Under the pieces are notes generated by a model, which saw only the letters and a list, made by a program, of their open reading frames with translations, was not told the DNA's origin and searched no databases. A stretch of DNA of 64,000 nt from an uncultured Chitinophagales bacterium (lineage in GTDB: Bacteria; Bacteroidota; Bacteroidia; Chitinophagales; JAHDHT01): positions 1 to 64,000 of the forward strand of contig CALHDG010000030.1 of assembly GCA_938023075.1 (NCBI GenBank), given 5' to 3'. Below are positions 30,947 through 41,514 of this stretch, in pieces (position 1 is the first letter of the stretch; the number at the start of each line of letters is the position of its first letter). Both the position numbers and the translations under genes were made by a program.

Positions 30947-31667
30947 TTAGCTTAACTCTTTAATATAATACTCAATAATCCATTGAAAAATACCTAATAC
31001 ATTTTCAATTTCACTTAGAAAATAAACTTTTGTATTTATTTTTAAGAAGTTTTCTTCTAAAACCATAAATAGCCATTCATTGCCTGTGGTCACGCAACCG
31101 TATACTTTATCTAAATGAACATCTTTTTTTTCATTGTACACTTTTGCTCCAATTAATTGAGCAGCACATTGTGGCACACCTAACTCAACATCATTTTTTT
31201 TTGCCTCAACAATTTGTATAATCGGAAAGTTGATATCAAAAGTACCAATGTCTTTTGCAAGAATGAAATCACATTCACCTTTAAGTCCCTTTTCTTCATC
31301 TGCAATTAGTACATCACCGGAATAGATCGTGAAAAATTTATCATTTCTTTTTCTAAGTTCTTTTAAGATGGGTACCACAATCCATTCAGATTTAGCTTTT
31401 TCACTTCGTATAGGCAGTTCTTCCACTTCCTTAAGTTCATTTGAAAAATTTATCATTTCTTTTTCTGAGTTCTTTTAAGATGGGTACCACAATCCATTCA
31501 GATTTAGCTTTTTCACTTCGTATAGGCAGTTCTTCCACTTCCTTAAGTTCATTGACTAAGTTGTTGCTTGGCAGGACAGGTTTAAATTCCGTTAATATAC
31601 TTGTCCTTCTATTGTCTACATTCAGTTTTTCTCCTATTATATCTAAAGTAAAATCACTGTAAGCCAT
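30947..31667 (-). pseudogene. PD-(D/E)XK-like nuclease protein broken by a 112-bp tandem duplication
   Basis: Reading from ATG 31667, the frame gives MAYSDFTLDIIGEKLNVDNR through ELPIRSEKAKSEWIVVPIL to RNDKFF, then stops at 31437. After one copy of the duplicated block the same protein continues: FTIYSGDVLIADEEKGLKGE, CDFILAK, FPIIQIVEAKKNDVELG and YGCVTTGNEWLF to the stop at 30947. Removing either copy restores one frame of about 203 codons. The Asp in ECDF and the Glu-x-Lys in VEAKK fit a PD-(D/E)XK-type fold. Similar unnamed proteins in cyanobacteria and Bacteroidota share the KxRSExIxxPIL and IVEAK motifs. It is the last gene of the defence operon, 36 bp after ptuB. Function unknown; a nuclease role is inferred. 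Confidence 0.8.
31331..31553. repeat. 112-bp near-perfect tandem duplication
   Basis: Positions 31331-31441 recur at 31443-31553 with a single mismatch (A31355 versus G31467) and one spacer base. The unit of 112 bp is not a multiple of three, so it shifts the reading frame of the gene it lies in. Near-identity indicates a recent event. Confidence 0.95.
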
Positions 31668-31703
31668 AGTTGATTGAATTATTGAATTTTGGTATAAAAA
31701 TGG

Positions 31704-32609
31704 TTAATTCAAATTCTTCTTTCTTCGGCGCAAATAAAATATTTTAACCATACACATCGGTTCATATTTCCCTTCCTGATTAGGCACATCAAAGAATTGC
31801 GTTTTAGAATCTATAAATTGCTTTTTTTGTTCACTTAAAAAGTGTGGTTTGTTAAACTTGTATGATACTTCACTTTCAATATCCTTCCACTTTGCAGCTC
31901 TTTGATTTTTAAGCTTGGTTGTATTAAGATTTAAAGTAAATTCTATATCGTATTGGATAGCAATATTTAACTCCTCTTCGGTTAAATATTCGGCTTTTAA
32001 AAAATATCCTATTTCCCCATTCTTGTATTGCATTGGGGTTGCTTTACTATTTTTAATTTTGTCATACTCAGATTTTAACGTTGCTTTATCATCATAATCA
32101 AAACAATAGATTTGACCGTTGTTAGTATATTTTAATTTGTTGATGTGATTTCTCTCTCTTGGGTCTAAAGTAATAAAGGATTCACCTTTTGCAGTATCGC
32201 AATAATGATTTTCCTGATTATTATCCCCCAAACTGTTACTCTCACCACCCATACAACAGATAAACATATTCTGGTAGTCAGTATCTAATTGATTATTATC
32301 TGAAAATTTTGAAGATTGAGGATGCCAATGTTCTACTTTGGTTTTGCAGTATTTCTTACTTTTCACTTTTTTGAATTCTGGAATTCTATCGTTGCAGTAA
32401 GCACATAAATACCCTTGTTCCTTTAAAAGCTGGGTTTGAAACTCACCAATTTCTGGATTTAGTTTTGTTCCTTCACATCTACAATATTTTTCTCCACTAT
32501 TATCTATCAATTTTCTCAATTCTTCATAATTAACATTGATTTCACTTTGCATACGAAATTCTAAAAGAAAATTTGGTTGGTTATCATTCATTTTATCAAT
32601 GTGCCTCAT
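31704..32609 (-). CDS. ptuB: Septu PtuB-like HNH nuclease
   Basis: The 301-residue protein carries the HNH core typical of PtuB (TIGR02646-like): LLKEQGYLCAYCNDRI with Cys69 and Cys72, then KVEHWHPQSS with His94 and His96, then DYQNMFICCMGG with Asn114 and further cysteines, and YCDTAKG near 137. The two CxxC-type pairs should bind zinc, and the His/Asn residues should form the nuclease centre. In Septu defence, PtuA ATPase controls PtuB, which degrades DNA during phage infection. The ATG overlaps the PtuA stop by 4 bp, so they are co-translated. The Septu assignment rests on the ATPase-HNH pair and motif match. Confidence 0.85.
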   Translation of the reverse strand: MRHIDKMNDNQPNFLLEFRMQSEINVNYEELRKLIDNSGEKYCRCEGTKLNPEIGEFQTQLLKEQGYLCAYCNDRIPEFKKVKSKKYCKTKVEHWHPQSSKFSDNNQLDTDYQNMFICCMGGESNSLGDNNQENHYCDTAKGESFITLDPRERNHINKLKYTNNGQIYCFDYDDKATLKSEYDKIKNSKATPMQYKNGEIGYFLKAEYLTEEELNIAIQYDIEFTLNLNTTKLKNQRAAKWKDIESEVSYKFNKPHFLSEQKKQFIDSKTQFFDVPNQEGKYEPMCMVKIFYLRRRKKNLN

Positions 32610-34078
32610 AATCCCTTGGTATTGTTAAGTTCAGATTTTTTATAATCTAATTCTGATTTTGCCCTTTGTAATAATAAATCTTCTTCACCTTCACCAATTT
32701 CCTCAAGTAAATTTTCGTAAAACTTATTTGACCTAGCTAAGCTATCTTCTGAATCTATTTCACCTATCAATCTAAATAATCTATCTATTTTTTCTTCAAT
32801 TACTTTTGGTCTTAATTCAATATTGCCTTCACCCATTTCAATTAGAATTTCATTTATCGTTCGACCATAATATCTTGCAGTATTTTGAACCTGACCATTC
32901 TTAAAAAAATGTACTTCTTCGCCTTCATAATGGGAAAGTAAAAATGGGGAATGCGTTGAAATGATATAGTGTGATGAATTGCTGACCTGAAGTTGTTGAA
33001 TAAATTTCCCTTGCCATGATGGATGAAGAAATACATCAGGTTCATCCATTAAAACCAATAAATCTTCATTTGCAAACAACTCGAAAAAAGCATTGGTGAT
33101 AAGCAGTTGTTGTTGTCCATCACTTAAATCTCCGATTTCAATATCAACTCCATTATCAATTGATGTAACCAGAATCTTTATATGATTTAACATATTGGTA
33201 GATTGTAACATATCCAAAAGATAGAATAATACCTTTTCTTCAACGTACTCTTCTCGCAAGGCATACCAATCTTCTAAATTAAAAATAATACGAATATTTT
33301 TTTCCACTATAGTTGCATTGCCGTTTTTTTTCAGTAGTTCTAAAAGTCGGAGTAGTTGACCTGTCAATCCCCAAAAATTTTCAGGATTTCCAGTTTTTAT
33401 AAACGAAGGACGGCTAATATGTAATTCCAAAAAGCCTTTTTCCTTCTTCTTTACACCAAGAGAATTTTCTAGAAAATCATTTGCTTGAGTACTGAATTGT
33501 AGTGATAAATAGGCAGCTGATAAAATTTTAAGATGTTTACGAACATCAAAGTAAATTAGCTCTCTATTGGTTATTCGAGACTTTTTGTCAAAATCTAATT
33601 GCTTTTTTGAATTGGGTTTAAATTCATTAGTATAAAGTTTTTCATGAACGTTTCCAATATTTTCTAATCTTCTTGAAAATCCTGAATAATAAATCATTAG
33701 ATTGGGTAAGATGAAATATATATCTCCAAAAATTTCTTCAATTTGAGTTTTGGAATGATTTTCACCATTTATGGATATGTTGAATGGATGATTTGATGCT
33801 TGATTTTCTGTTATGACGATTTCCAATTTTTCTTCTTCACTTAAATTACTTTTTGAACTTGCATTGATAGGGGTATTAATTTCGTATTTTAGTTTAAAAT
33901 TGAAATTAGAAACAGCTACCCATCTGTGCAAAGCACTAAAAATATGGGTAATTATCTCGTAAAATGTTGTCTTACCTGCACCGTTTTTGCCAATAATGAT
34001 AGATAAGTTATCTGTGAAATCTACTGAAAAATCTTTTAAAATCTTGTACTGCTTAACTTGTAAGTCTAATAGTTTCAT
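32606..34078 (-). CDS. ptuA: Septu PtuA-like ATPase
   Basis: The 490-residue protein begins MKLLDLQVKQYKILKDFSVD with Walker A GKNGAGKTT (residues 30-38). It has an ABC-type signature (DLSDGQQQLL, about 335-344) and Walker B LLVLMDEPDVFLHPSW, followed by the switch histidine in YIISTHSPFLLSH. This is the SMC/OLD-like ATPase type found in PtuA. I take the ATG at 34078, where the conserved domain begins; a more distal ATG at 34111 would add a lysine-rich 11-residue leader. It overlaps the hsdS end by 26 bp and the ptuB start by 4 bp. OLD-family ATPases are the main alternative, but no TOPRIM domain is present. Confidence 0.85.
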   Translation of the reverse strand: MKLLDLQVKQYKILKDFSVDFTDNLSIIIGKNGAGKTTFYEIITHIFSALHRWVAVSNFNFKLKYEINTPINASSKSNLSEEEKLEIVITENQASNHPFNISINGENHSKTQIEEIFGDIYFILPNLMIYYSGFSRRLENIGNVHEKLYTNEFKPNSKKQLDFDKKSRITNRELIYFDVRKHLKILSAAYLSLQFSTQANDFLENSLGVKKKEKGFLELHISRPSFIKTGNPENFWGLTGQLLRLLELLKKNGNATIVEKNIRIIFNLEDWYALREEYVEEKVLFYLLDMLQSTNMLNHIKILVTSIDNGVDIEIGDLSDGQQQLLITNAFFELFANEDLLVLMDEPDVFLHPSWQGKFIQQLQVSNSSHYIISTHSPFLLSHYEGEEVHFFKNGQVQNTARYYGRTINEILIEMGEGNIELRPKVIEEKIDRLFRLIGEIDSEDSLARSNKFYENLLEEIGEGEEDLLLQRAKSELDYKKSELNNTKGL

Positions 34079-35462
34079 TTTTTTCTTTTGTTTTAAAAAT
34101 AGCTTTTTCAAAATTTACTTGAGCACTGATAATTAGTTTAGTCGATTTATTTTTTAGCTTATTGATTTCATTATTACTTTTCCGAAATCTACAAACCAAA
34201 TCATATTGAACTTCCATAGGAGGAATCGGAAAAGATATTTTTAATAGATTTTGTATCCCAAGTTCAGTTTGCTTAGTAGACTTGGCAGATTTTAAATTTG
34301 CTATTTGGCTTTGCCCAAAGTAACTGTTAAACAGATATGTAAAATATTCAGGATTAATTTTGTCAGTATTTAACCTTAAAAGTAAAATATGGCTATCATA
34401 TAGCCAACCACTGTATACTGATTTAATGTAAGTAGCTCTACCTATGGTGCCTTCGCCGGTAGAATTAACAATAACATCTCCAACTTTTGTAAGATATTTT
34501 TTATTTATATTATTATACCAATTATCATTAACTTTCTTAGCAAATCTGAAATCAATTTTATTCCAACGATTACATTTTTGATTAAGAATAAATTTTGTGC
34601 CTTCAGAATCATACTTGGGACTTTTACCCCTAAATGTCTCAATATATAAATGCGGGTTATTTTCAAAGTTCATTATATCAAATTTATAAGAAATATAGCT
34701 TATTGAATTGGTTAAATTATCAACCCCCCAATTGTAAATTGAATTAAAATCAATTAATTGAAATATTTTTTTTTCAAAACTATTTACATCTCTTTTTATT
34801 CCTAATAGGGATTTCGTATAATTTTTAATATCTACTTTTATTTGTTCTACTTCTTTGTATATTTTTTCTACCAAGTTTAATTTTCTTAAATATGACTTAA
34901 CCAATACTTTCTGTTCTTCCAGAGGAGGAAGCGGAATTTTAAAATTCAGAAAAGTCAGTAGATTTATTCTTTGCCTGCCTGTTGTTCCAGAACTAGCTAA
35001 TTGACATAGTTCTCTGAAACTACTTAAGTTAGTTAGCAGTGTAAAAAAATAGGGAAGTATTTTATCTAAATTAATATCAAATGCTAAAAAATCTTGCGTA
35101 ACTACTGCTCCTTCTAAATCCGTAGGGATGATTCCGAAAGCTCCATTTCTTGCATCAATTTTAGACATAATGAACTGCCCAGATCTAACATAATATTGTG
35201 TTTTTGTTCCTATATCTTTACCTAAAACTTCATCCCTTTGGATAACTCCTTTATTGTATAACCTTATAGTTACTCTCTTATATAAAACATCACTTTTTAT
35301 TTGCGTTTTTTCTTTAACTCTTTGAATTAAGTTTCCTATACTTTCTAACGGAATACCTTTTTGAAAAATGAAATCACTTTGCTGTATGGATCCTACGCTC
35401 CAATTCAACATTGTATGGAAAGGAAAAATATTAATACGTTCATATGTAATTTTACTAACCAT
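34053..35462 (-). CDS. hsdS: Type I-like restriction specificity subunit
   Basis: The 469-residue protein has two target-recognition domains, each followed by a long helix. The first half ends IPLPPLEEQKVLVKSYLRKL (about 180-200) and the second ISFPIPPMEVQYDLVCRF (about 415-435), the usual conserved-helix starts of HsdS. Such subunits read a bipartite DNA sequence. I prefer the ATG at 35462: it lies in the ATGGTTAG overlap with the end of the methylase gene and gives the usual N-terminus, whereas the ORF could extend to 35489. Two domains imply an asymmetric target. It overlaps the PtuA gene downstream. Confidence 0.88.
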   Translation of the reverse strand: MVSKITYERINIFPFHTMLNWSVGSIQQSDFIFQKGIPLESIGNLIQRVKEKTQIKSDVLYKRVTIRLYNKGVIQRDEVLGKDIGTKTQYYVRSGQFIMSKIDARNGAFGIIPTDLEGAVVTQDFLAFDINLDKILPYFFTLLTNLSSFRELCQLASSGTTGRQRINLLTFLNFKIPLPPLEEQKVLVKSYLRKLNLVEKIYKEVEQIKVDIKNYTKSLLGIKRDVNSFEKKIFQLIDFNSIYNWGVDNLTNSISYISYKFDIMNFENNPHLYIETFRGKSPKYDSEGTKFILNQKCNRWNKIDFRFAKKVNDNWYNNINKKYLTKVGDVIVNSTGEGTIGRATYIKSVYSGWLYDSHILLLRLNTDKINPEYFTYLFNSYFGQSQIANLKSAKSTKQTELGIQNLLKISFPIPPMEVQYDLVCRFRKSNNEINKLKNKSTKLIISAQVNFEKAIFKTKEKNETIRLTS

Positions 35463-37764
35463 AAAAAGAAAGTGGTTTACCATTACCAACTACTCGCATT
35501 ATTTTTTCACTACCATTTAAATGATAACTAATTTCATCTTTTGAATACTCCCATAGTTTTACTTCTTTTCGATAACTCCCAAATTCTTTGGCAACCTCTA
35601 TTAGCTCATTTTCACACGATGCCCCAGTGCTGCTAATTCCTGCTTTTTCAACCTTTATTATCGGAATAGGGTAATCAAATTCCCTTTTGAAAAAAGATTT
35701 AATTTCTGATTCAATTCGATTGTTTATTAATTTTAAATCAAACTTGTATTTCTGTCTCAACTTCTTAAGTCCTTCTTTGTCTTTATTATATTTAAAATGA
35801 TCTCTCTGCTTTTCGAACCCGTTGTTTAGTTCATCAAGTTCTGTTTGAAATTTTTCATTGGCGGTTACGGTAGCTTTCTCCATAATTTTATGATATAGTT
35901 TTTTTTCATCCGCAGTAAATTTTTTAAAGAATATAATGCTTGGCTTCACATTAGCACCGGAAGCTATAAAAACGTCTTTTGGTATAGAGGTAATATTGAT
36001 TATTTTTGCTTTACTTTCTACATAATCTCTTACTTTTTCTAATTGGATACCACTCAATACACCATCAGGAAGTACAATACCCATCCTACCACCAGGTTTC
36101 AATAGGTTTAAACAACGTTCAATAAATAAAATTTCGGATAACCCTCTTCCCATTTTACCTGTATCAAATAAGTCAATTATTGGTTTACCCTTGTTGCCTT
36201 TTGTATCTGTGAACTCAATCCATTCTTTTAAAGGTTTAACCACTTTTTCTTCATACTGTGGATATTTATTTTTGTAAATTTCAATTTTACCTTCATTAGG
36301 AATATCTGCTAATGATACTCTAAGATTTCTGCTAATACGAGAACCAAAAGGGGGATTGGTTAAGATTACATCAAATCTTTCTTCAAAAATTCCATTAATA
36401 TTCAAGAGTCCGTCATTATGATGTACACCACCATGACCATCGCCGTGCATAATCATATTCATCTTTGCAGTACGTGCCATTCGAGGATTTGCATCCGTAC
36501 CATAAATGCATTTGTGAGATAAGTTATATAATCTTCCTTTTTTGTTTTGTAAATCAAATTCTTTATCTAATTGTATAAATAATTTATTTTCTTTTTGTTT
36601 AATTTTATTTTGCTCATCCGAAGTTTTTTTATCAAAAGTCTTACCTCTTATTATTTTTCTGACTTTTGTTTTTTCTTTTTTAATAGAAAGTTCAATTTTT
36701 TCTCTTATATAGTCAAAAACCTTAATTAAAAATCCCCCGCTACCGCAACATGGGTCGCATATTAATTCGTTTTCCTGAGGATCCAGCACTTCAACCATAT
36801 AATCTACAAGGGTACGTGGTGTAAAAAATTGCCCTAACTCTCCTCTAAAAGTTTTACCTAAAAATTCTTCAAAAGCAAGCCCTTTAATATCGTCAGAGGT
36901 TGCTGATAAATTAAACTTTTCAAGTTCAGTTACAATTGATTCGAAGCTCATTCTTTTCAATTTTATTTGATCAGTAGCTTCAAATAATTCATCCTGTTGA
37001 TATTCCCTTTTGGTCTCATCAAAAAGATATTGCATATAATCTTTTGCAGCGTGAGGTGCGCTTATTTCAAGGCTTGGTCTAATTGTCTTTTCATATTTCT
37101 GCTCATCTCTTAAAAAAACATCTTTTGAAAACAACATTTCAGTATTATTATTTCTTTCGTGCAAAATTTTCATAAAAAGAATTTTGCTTATTTCATCAAA
37201 TGCTGCTTCGGGAGATAGTTTGTCGTTATTCCGAATTATATTATGACATTTAAATAATAATTTACTGAATTCGTCTCTGGTGAATTTTTTAGTCTCATTT
37301 ATGAATTTTTTTATTTGGGAATTACTTTTAATTATTGAAGCTTTTGGAATATCTTTTAAATAGTCTAATTGTGGTGTTTCTGACGAAAACTCTGGAATAT
37401 GGAATACTTTAGTCTGTTTCAAATTCTTAGCAATAAAAAAATCTGCTTCTACCGCCTCGGCAAATTTTAAGCCTGTTAGATAATCTTCTTTTTTAATGGT
37501 GATATGTTCTGCTTTACATTCAACTGCTACAATAATTGAAGGCTTCTTTTTTTTATTTTTTTCGTCTGCATTTTTCCATATTGCTACATCGGCTTTAAAC
37601 CTTCGTTTGATTTGTATGTCTTGTCCCAACTGATTTAGACTGTAGCCGTATTTTTCAACAAGTTCTAAAATGAATTTTTGCTTCAATTCCTCTTCCTGAG
37701 TACACAAGACCCATTTTCCTAAAAGTGGAGCATATATGTTACCATCTTTTATTTTAATTTTCAT
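35455..37764 (-). CDS. hsdM: Fused restriction nuclease-N6-adenine methyltransferase
   Basis: The 769-residue protein joins two activities. Residues about 20-110 form an HSDR_N-like PD-(D/E)XK domain: RRFKADVAIWKN with Asp59 and VAVECKAE with Glu82 and Lys84. Residues about 190-560 form an N6-adenine methylase with a helical N-terminal part, AdoMet-binding motif DPCCGSGGF (337-345) and catalytic NPPF (470-473). The ATG at 37764 is chosen because the usual domain start (MKIKIKDGNIYAPLLGKW) follows; an upstream ATG at 37797 adds an unlikely leader. With HsdS and no helicase-type HsdR, this resembles BcgI-like enzymes in which one chain cuts and methylates. It starts the operon. Confidence 0.88.
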   Translation of the reverse strand: MKIKIKDGNIYAPLLGKWVLCTQEEELKQKFILELVEKYGYSLNQLGQDIQIKRRFKADVAIWKNADEKNKKKKPSIIVAVECKAEHITIKKEDYLTGLKFAEAVEADFFIAKNLKQTKVFHIPEFSSETPQLDYLKDIPKASIIKSNSQIKKFINETKKFTRDEFSKLLFKCHNIIRNNDKLSPEAAFDEISKILFMKILHERNNNTEMLFSKDVFLRDEQKYEKTIRPSLEISAPHAAKDYMQYLFDETKREYQQDELFEATDQIKLKRMSFESIVTELEKFNLSATSDDIKGLAFEEFLGKTFRGELGQFFTPRTLVDYMVEVLDPQENELICDPCCGSGGFLIKVFDYIREKIELSIKKEKTKVRKIIRGKTFDKKTSDEQNKIKQKENKLFIQLDKEFDLQNKKGRLYNLSHKCIYGTDANPRMARTAKMNMIMHGDGHGGVHHNDGLLNINGIFEERFDVILTNPPFGSRISRNLRVSLADIPNEGKIEIYKNKYPQYEEKVVKPLKEWIEFTDTKGNKGKPIIDLFDTGKMGRGLSEILFIERCLNLLKPGGRMGIVLPDGVLSGIQLEKVRDYVESKAKIINITSIPKDVFIASGANVKPSIIFFKKFTADEKKLYHKIMEKATVTANEKFQTELDELNNGFEKQRDHFKYNKDKEGLKKLRQKYKFDLKLINNRIESEIKSFFKREFDYPIPIIKVEKAGISSTGASCENELIEVAKEFGSYRKEVKLWEYSKDEISYHLNGSEKIMRVVGNGKPLSFYG

Positions 37765-37855
37765 ATTTTTATAACTACAAATAACTATCAACTTCAAGCT
37801 GATATAATACTAAATTAAATTATTAATGTTACAAATCATAATATCATGTTTATCT

Positions 37856-40992: not shown

Positions 40993-41223
40993 ATGATAAC
41001 ACAAAGCATTTCTTTTACGGAGCCGAATAATGAATGGTTAAAAGCTCAGGTAAGCAGCAAAGAATATTCCAGCAAAAGTGAGTTAGTGAATGATTTAATT
41101 AGACAAGCCCGCAATCAACAAGTTGAAATTGAATGGCTAAGCGTAAAATTGGATATGGCTGAAAACAGTGGGTTTACTAAAGATAGCAAAAAAGAAATAT
41201 TGGTATACAGGCTAAGGCTATGA
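40993..41223 (+). CDS. parD: ParD-like antitoxin with an altered C-terminus
   Basis: The 76-residue antitoxin starts MITQSISFTEPNNEWLKAQV and continues SSKEYSSKSELVNDLIRQAR, the DNA-binding ribbon-helix-helix region. Then comes LDMAENSGFTKDSKKEIL, the usual ParE-binding segment. The last residues VYRLRL are unlike the family. In the next frame, from 41205, the sequence reads IQAKAMTNG and stops at 41232-41234, overlapping the toxin ATG, which is the typical ending. A small indel near 41203 probably changed the tail and shortened the overlap. The binding segment is retained, so it may still work. Confidence 0.85.
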   Translation: MITQSISFTEPNNEWLKAQVSSKEYSSKSELVNDLIRQARNQQVEIEWLSVKLDMAENSGFTKDSKKEILVYRLRL

Positions 41224-41226
41224 CGA

Positions 41227-41514
41227 ATGGCTAAGTACAGACTTAGCAATGCTGCTAAAGAAGATTTAATAAGAAAACATCAATTTGGAGTTAGCCAATT
41301 TGGATTGAAGCAAGCCGATAAATATTTCAATACACTTTTTGATTACTTTGAAACTATAGCGAAAAACTCATTTGCTTTTCAGTCTGTAAATCATATTAAA
41401 ACAGGTTATAGAAGATGTGTTTGCCGAGTACATAGTATTTATTACAAAGTTAATGGTGATATAGTTGACATTATGACCATAATTGGCAGACGAGATTTAA
41501 CCAATAAGCTCTAA
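41227..41514 (+). CDS. parE: ParE-like toxin
   Basis: The 95-residue protein belongs to the RelE/ParE superfamily. It reads MAKYRLSNAAKEDLIRKHQF, then FGLKQADKYFNTLFDYFETI (helical hairpin), and ends YRRCVCRVHSIYYKVNGDIV with IMTIIGRRDL. ParE toxins of this kind inhibit DNA gyrase. The GYRRCVC and DIMxIIGRxD motifs are characteristic of the Bacteroidota subgroup. All parts are intact, in contrast to the collapsed toxin at 23.0 kb. It follows its antitoxin by 3 bp. Confidence 0.88.
   Translation: MAKYRLSNAAKEDLIRKHQFGVSQFGLKQADKYFNTLFDYFETIAKNSFAFQSVNHIKTGYRRCVCRVHSIYYKVNGDIVDIMTIIGRRDLTNKL

Follow-up and report, generated by a model that had tools for sequence, protein, structure and literature searches.

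A restriction-methylation operon coupled to a PtuA/PtuB pair in an uncultured Chitinophagales bacterium

Organization of the operon

The window considered here, i.e., the whole stretch of DNA that was analyzed, comprises 64,000 nucleotides from an uncultured Chitinophagales bacterium. Across positions 31704-37764 it carries four consecutive reverse-strand genes in the order M-S-PtuA-PtuB. The first of these, M (35455..37764, reverse strand, read from an ATG), encodes a single protein in which a PD-(D/E)XK nuclease is fused to an N6-adenine methylase (Pfam HSDR_N_2, 2.1e-15, and N6_Mtase, 3e-36), the HSDR_N nuclease domain occupying 37345..37698 (reverse strand; residues 34-151 of a 780-aa frame, Pfam match). 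The open frame extends to a TTG at 37797, but relatives start at the same methionine as the M called from the ATG. Among 77 relatives the nuclease residues are kept almost throughout (D70 in 77, E93 in 72, and K95 in 76), and the NPPF motif of the methylase is present in all 77. Profile comparison with solved structures places M with the Type I M subunits (best 2okc, 2e-28) and with RM.BsaXI (8w0p, 1.7e-21). The second gene, S (34053..35462, reverse strand), encodes an HsdS-like specificity subunit with two recognition domains (Pfam Methylase_S, 5e-20, in two stretches; PADLOC Specificity_I, 2e-46). The list of open reading frames and the Pfam matches reveal neither a translocase gene in the window's cluster nor an HsdR motor subunit in its operon. 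Judged from these domains and residues, M and S together are a Type IIB/BcgI-like restriction-methylation (RM) core in which the motifs of both nuclease and methylase are intact. The initial annotation had already recognized the nuclease-methylase fusion, the two-domain HsdS, and the lack of a translocase, all of which are borne out; its term “BcgI-like” holds for the architecture, whereas by sequence the nearest curated family among the matches listed is MAD2 of MADS, which it did not name.

Behind S lie A (32606..34078, reverse strand), coding for a PtuA-like ABC ATPase of an RM-linked lineage (see below), and B (31704..32609, reverse strand), coding for a PtuB-like HNH nuclease. PADLOC recovers them as PtuA1 (1e-45) and PtuB (1e-38), in agreement with the Walker-motif ATPase and PtuB-like HNH protein noted earlier. 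The GxNGxGK motif, the SxG signature, the DEP motif, and the H-loop are invariant in 22 RM-linked PtuA proteins, as are H94 and N114 in 21 RM-linked PtuB sequences. The nearest solved relatives in profile searches of the PDB are PtuA 8ee4 (2.6e-35) and PtuB 8ee7 (1.1e-24), respectively. An AlphaFold model of PtuA (mean pLDDT 82.6) finds retron/Septu PtuA at the top and AriA of PARIS next, at moderate TM-scores of 0.3-0.5. On this evidence of motifs and profiles, A and B are a PtuA/PtuB pair with intact motifs.

The four reading frames are tightly joined. M and S overlap by 8 bp (ATGGTTAG), the start codon of S (ATG, 35462-35460) overlapping the stop codon of M; S and A overlap by 26 bp, A and B by 4 bp, and 36 bp separate the stop codon of PtuB from the next ATG, that of a PD-(D/E)XK gene. 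All four distances agree exactly with those given in the initial annotation. The four-gene core M-S-PtuA-PtuB is real. Its G+C content is 27-32%, compared with 34-41% outside, and a search of 60 relatives found no M beyond one partial match (43%); the operon is, therefore, probably an acquired island. When an empty insertion site was looked for, the two genes flanking the operon were not adjacent to each other in the relatives recovered. A ParD/ParE-like toxin-antitoxin pair lies nearby (40993-41514, forward strand). As to mobile elements, three plasmids carry relatives of M, and so do five contigs of uncultivated viruses, two of which possess M-S-A-B. Searches with PtuA gave no matches in plasmids (threshold 1e-25) or phages (1e-20), and M gave none in phages, the query in the latter case being the M of locus L028.

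Some relatives of M differ from that of the window in their surroundings or length. A small HTH_3 regulator resembling RM controllers is encoded just upstream of M in seven loci (L024, L025, L029, L030, L059, L099, and L210), and none is found there in the window's operon. In L072 and L074 the M frames, 879-950 aa long, extend into the S region and no separate HsdS was found, so that these frames are possibly M-S fusions.

The adjacent PD-(D/E)XK gene

A fifth gene had originally been counted as part of the coupled unit, as a PD-(D/E)XK-like gene. The coupling of the first four stands, but the fifth proves to be broken by a tandem duplication that had been overlooked (31330..31553, reverse strand; copies 31330-31441 and 31442-31553, spaced by 112 bp and 99% identical with one mismatch). 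The duplication shifts the frame and thereby splits the gene into two overlapping open reading frames: an N-terminal fragment of 76 aa (31437..31667, reverse strand), matching the start of intact relatives (MAYSDFTL...), and a C-terminal one of 169 aa (30947..31456, reverse strand) that keeps the catalytic core with the conserved GECDF...VEAK (PADLOC PD_DExK, 2.5e-41). Both lie next to the system without belonging to it. The duplication itself may represent decay, a reversible length switch, or an assembly error.

Intact members of this family measure about 200-215 aa and share an invariant D and E(A/S)K-type residues. No Pfam family matches them, and the matches from a fold search with a paralogue were all weak, with no value under 0.001. 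The family is dispersed and often tandem, with 24 copies in the relative G648, 27 in the genome of L024, the closest operon, and 12 in that of L055. Arrays of up to 7 in a row, including many broken copies, occur in Saprospiraceae-type genomes (G653:C248:6160-10722, C192, and C78; G648). We regard it as extremely improbable that the operon is a five-gene system to which the PD-(D/E)XK gene contributes a function, perhaps with the 112-bp duplication acting as a switch. Its position on the same strand at 36 bp, the preservation of the motifs in the 169-aa frame, and the homologue that precedes M by about 10 bp in L055 would fit such a role. However, the gene is multicopy and tandem elsewhere, it is broken here, and the L024 operon contains no homologue despite the 27 copies in that genome; on these grounds the gene was rejected as a fifth member.

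Recurrence of the gene order

Searching 84,980 species genomes with M yielded 233 relatives, the best 80 of which were kept as loci, a sample that is skewed to close relatives of M and consists mostly of Bacteroidota, with cases from Ignavibacteriota, Campylobacterota, and Psychrobacter also among them. S adjoins M in 75 of these best 80 loci. Where at least 3 kb of sequence is available beyond S (57 loci), a PtuA/SMC-like ATPase follows in 47 and is missing in 10, and the ATPase is accompanied by PtuB in 19. At most junctions the neighboring genes overlap or lie a few bases apart, a 4-bp overlap being the commonest arrangement between S and A. The closest operon, L024 of a member of the Saprospiraceae, possesses the same four genes (identities of 74% for M, 41% for S, 74% for A, and 63% for B). 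A protein of 144-150 aa with a weak AAA/STAND-like match is encoded between HsdS and PtuA in the M-S-A-B operons of L025 (8872-9306), L027, L092, and L099.

A chance juxtaposition of RM and PtuAB within a defense island might be imagined for a low-G+C insertion that is essentially absent from 60 relatives, save for the partial match mentioned above, and that has PD-(D/E)XK and ParDE genes nearby. Yet 21 of the 80 loci (again the best 80 of 233), distributed over several families and phyla, have PtuB following M-S-ATPase in the same order, which makes chance very improbable; this explanation was rejected on the basis of the recurrence, the trees, and the ATPase-anchored search described below.

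The distances between A proteins correlate strongly with those between B proteins (Mantel r 0.79), whereas those of M and A are only weakly correlated (r 0.21-0.32, p about 0.01 or less). This contrast indicates that the RM and PtuAB halves swap partners within a dedicated pool. The weak M-A correlation thus fits partly reshuffled halves, and it fits loose as well as tight coupling.

Phylogeny of the ATPase

In a tree of 95 rows, the RM-linked ATPases are separated from the PtuA proteins of stand-alone Septu systems by a branch with 97% SH-aLRT support, and a mixture-model tree of 52 rows reproduces the split with 100/100 support, the PtuA of the window falling outside the stand-alone branch (100/100). 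The sole exception is L161, where a PtuAB pair next to RM genes falls inside the stand-alone branch, which implies that some adjacency of RM and PtuAB arises by other routes. The two true members of TIGR04435 that were placed (L196 and L201), which are encoded by viral contigs in operons of the M-S-ATPase type, cluster with the RM-linked proteins at moderate support.

The converse searches started from the PtuAB half. A PtuB profile gave matches in 40 of 346 genomes of the phylum. Among the PtuAB pairs examined, 37 have no RM genes in the retrieved stretch, a few of these lying near contig ends, and RM-adjacent pairs were obtained, besides that of the window, in L155, L161, and L192. The window's own genome contains four stand-alone PtuAB pairs (L019, L020, L022, and L173), all with a PtuA of the other branch. 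A profile of the RM-linked ATPase alone, run against 396 genomes at 1e-50, retrieved ten matches, one of them at a contig edge; all nine that could be judged, the window's included, lie directly behind HsdS. By tree position and gene neighborhood, the ATPase of the window is a member of a lineage found next to HsdS.

These data bear on the question whether RM and Septu are independent defenses on one transcript, the operon merely coordinating their dosage. Such independence would be in line with the fact that PtuAB works without RM where it stands alone, that most PtuAB loci are of this kind, and that the M-A correlation is weak. We nevertheless consider it quite unlikely, since the RM-linked ATPases form their own lineage, the judgeable ATPase-anchored matches are without exception located behind HsdS, and overlaps of the 4-bp type recur. 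The pairing recurs across the phylum with a private branch of PtuA ATPases and, therefore, RM and PtuAB are probably one working system rather than two defenses side by side. The initial annotation had stated that independent occurrence of the two halves without recurrent linkage would mark the coupling as a chance insertion. The opposite was found, and the recurrent order, the conserved overlaps, and the RM-only ATPase lineage lend strong support to its suggestion that RM and Septu form one composite system.

Comparison with known defense systems

The operon resembles several known systems without coinciding with any of them. MADS, a methylation-associated defense system of eight genes (MAD1-MAD8), likewise combines a methylase carrying an N-terminal HSDR_N-like region with S and an ABC ATPase, and each of the 22 M proteins examined is recognized by the MAD2 profile. 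However, the operon of the window has four genes, and its matches fall far below the curated cut-offs (274 bits against 720 for M with MAD2, 48 against 420 for A with MAD3, and 33 against 400 for S with MAD5), so that membership of MADS was rejected; among the matches listed, no other MAD model was hit by the proteins of the operon, and none is listed for PtuB. With Septu and the PtuAB of retron I-A the window shares PtuA and PtuB with all key motifs, and the best solved relatives of both proteins come from these systems. It differs from Septu in that its PtuA belongs to a separate, RM-only branch and that ptuAB is translationally coupled to HsdS, and from retron I-A in that neither a reverse transcriptase nor msDNA was found beside ptuAB, whose neighbors are HsdS upstream and the PD-(D/E)XK gene downstream. 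TIGR04435, the “restriction system-associated AAA family ATPase,” is named for a restriction context and its true members occur in M-S-ATPase operons, but the ATPase of the window reaches only 76.8 bits against a cut-off of 300 and has PtuB behind it. The Type IIB enzymes BcgI and BsaXI possess the nuclease-methylase fusion, a separate two-domain S, and no motor; an ATPase-effector pair is not known from BcgI-type enzymes.

PrrC/EcoprrI and PARIS (AriAB) would be comparable at the level of function, as effectors that guard restriction and are triggered by inhibition of RM, a role that for the window is proposed by analogy. Both PrrC and PARIS respond to restriction (RM) inhibition (PMC12707154, PMC12839542). 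Their effectors have other folds (an ACNase in PrrC, TOPRIM in AriB) than the HNH nuclease PtuB, and PARIS does not form part of an RM operon. The PADLOC models would label the locus of the window as RM plus Septu. A search of the open-access literature found no published RM-PtuAB operon, although an earlier description may exist elsewhere. Within that literature, the operon is a previously undescribed variant of RM-coupled ABC-ATPase defense, with MADS, Septu, and TIGR04435 as its closest kinds.

Possible mode of action

Characterized PtuAB pairs indicate what an unrestrained effector might do. PtuAB is toxic unless neutralized by the retron RT-msDNA, and that of Eco7 depletes tRNA-Tyr (PMC11555353). 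In Septu EcB88 both the Walker motif of PtuA and the HNH motif of PtuB are required, and tRNA-Tyr is cleaved (PMC13096335). We infer that PtuAB is controlled by M-S, and consider it on balance probable that a BcgI-like, MADS-related RM core gates the PtuAB effector as a guard in the manner of PrrC, PARIS, and the retron. In such a system an M2S enzyme would methylate its own bipartite sites and could cut unmodified DNA, while PtuA would dock on the DNA-bound M-S assembly and keep PtuB inactive, much as the reverse transcriptase and msDNA hold PtuAB in retron I-A. A phage that inhibits or titrates the RM enzyme, or that floods M-S with unmethylated sites, would act as the trigger. Freed or activated in this way, PtuAB would cleave an essential nucleic acid (tRNA or DNA) through its HNH nuclease and abort the infection. 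The pair would thus form a second line of defense that, like PrrC/EcoprrI or PARIS, responds to the state of the restriction enzyme.

In the main rival to this guard model, M-S would guide PtuAB to unmethylated DNA: it would find unmethylated sites and recruit PtuA and PtuB as ATP-dependent restriction subunits, with PtuB cutting the invading DNA and nothing being guarded, a division of labor like that of MADS. The lack of HsdR in the M-S-A-B operon of the window speaks for it, as does the likeness of all 22 M proteins to MAD2 of a system that is methylation-associated by name, and, according to a statement in PMC11555353, Septu PtuAB degrades DNA in one characterized case. However, M has its own conserved nuclease, and several relatives of the RM-branch ATPase occur in Type I loci, two of which, L242 and L244, clearly encode HsdR (E about 1e-170) upstream. 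The presence of the same ATPase branch in loci that keep HsdR implies that the ATPase adds a function instead of merely substituting for a lost motor, and, given also the nuclease of M, an additional DNA-cutting subunit is not obviously needed. We hold recruitment of PtuAB for restriction to be rather unlikely. The two models make different predictions on the target of PtuB and on the effect of anti-restriction proteins.

The occurrence of a PtuA-like ATPase lineage beside HsdS, in motor-less as well as Type I loci, suggests that sensing is done by the restriction enzyme itself, an idea that is testable by simple gene removals and anti-restriction proteins. It bears on how PtuAB and related ABC-ATPase/nuclease effectors are restrained outside retrons. 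It also means that pipelines reporting “RM” and “Septu” as two systems may split one system.

Varying partners of the ATPase

The position behind M-S-ATPase is not reserved for PtuB. It may also be taken by a GIY-YIG/DUF4357 protein, by a GmrSD-like enzyme with a 130-aa partner, or by FokI-like nucleases, and Argonaute-like genes occur further down. A single sensor serving interchangeable effectors would be expected to show such a varying slot behind a constant core. Extending the guard model, we tentatively suggest, as a possibility that falls short of an even chance, that PtuAB is gated by the DNA-bound methylase-HsdS assembly where the retron uses RT-msDNA, and that the operon would represent a widespread restriction-gated class of Septu, distinguished by an ATPase lineage of its own and by effectors that can be exchanged (HNH, GIY-YIG, GmrSD, FokI-like, and Argonaute).

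The GIY-YIG/DUF4357 protein, about 275 aa long (PADLOC PDC-S14), is encoded in the M-S operons of eleven loci (L035, L037, L041, L044, L047, L057, L060, L071, L075, L088, and L095) and is probably another effector. In L093, L094, L096, and L098 the gene after the RM-linked ATPase encodes a conserved protein of about 130 aa without a match to known families, and in three of these four loci a GmrSD-like enzyme of 693 aa comes next. Argonaute-like genes (Piwi, PADLOC pAgo) are located in the same run of genes behind M-S-ATPase in L035 (16290-18332) and L027 (17254-19353).
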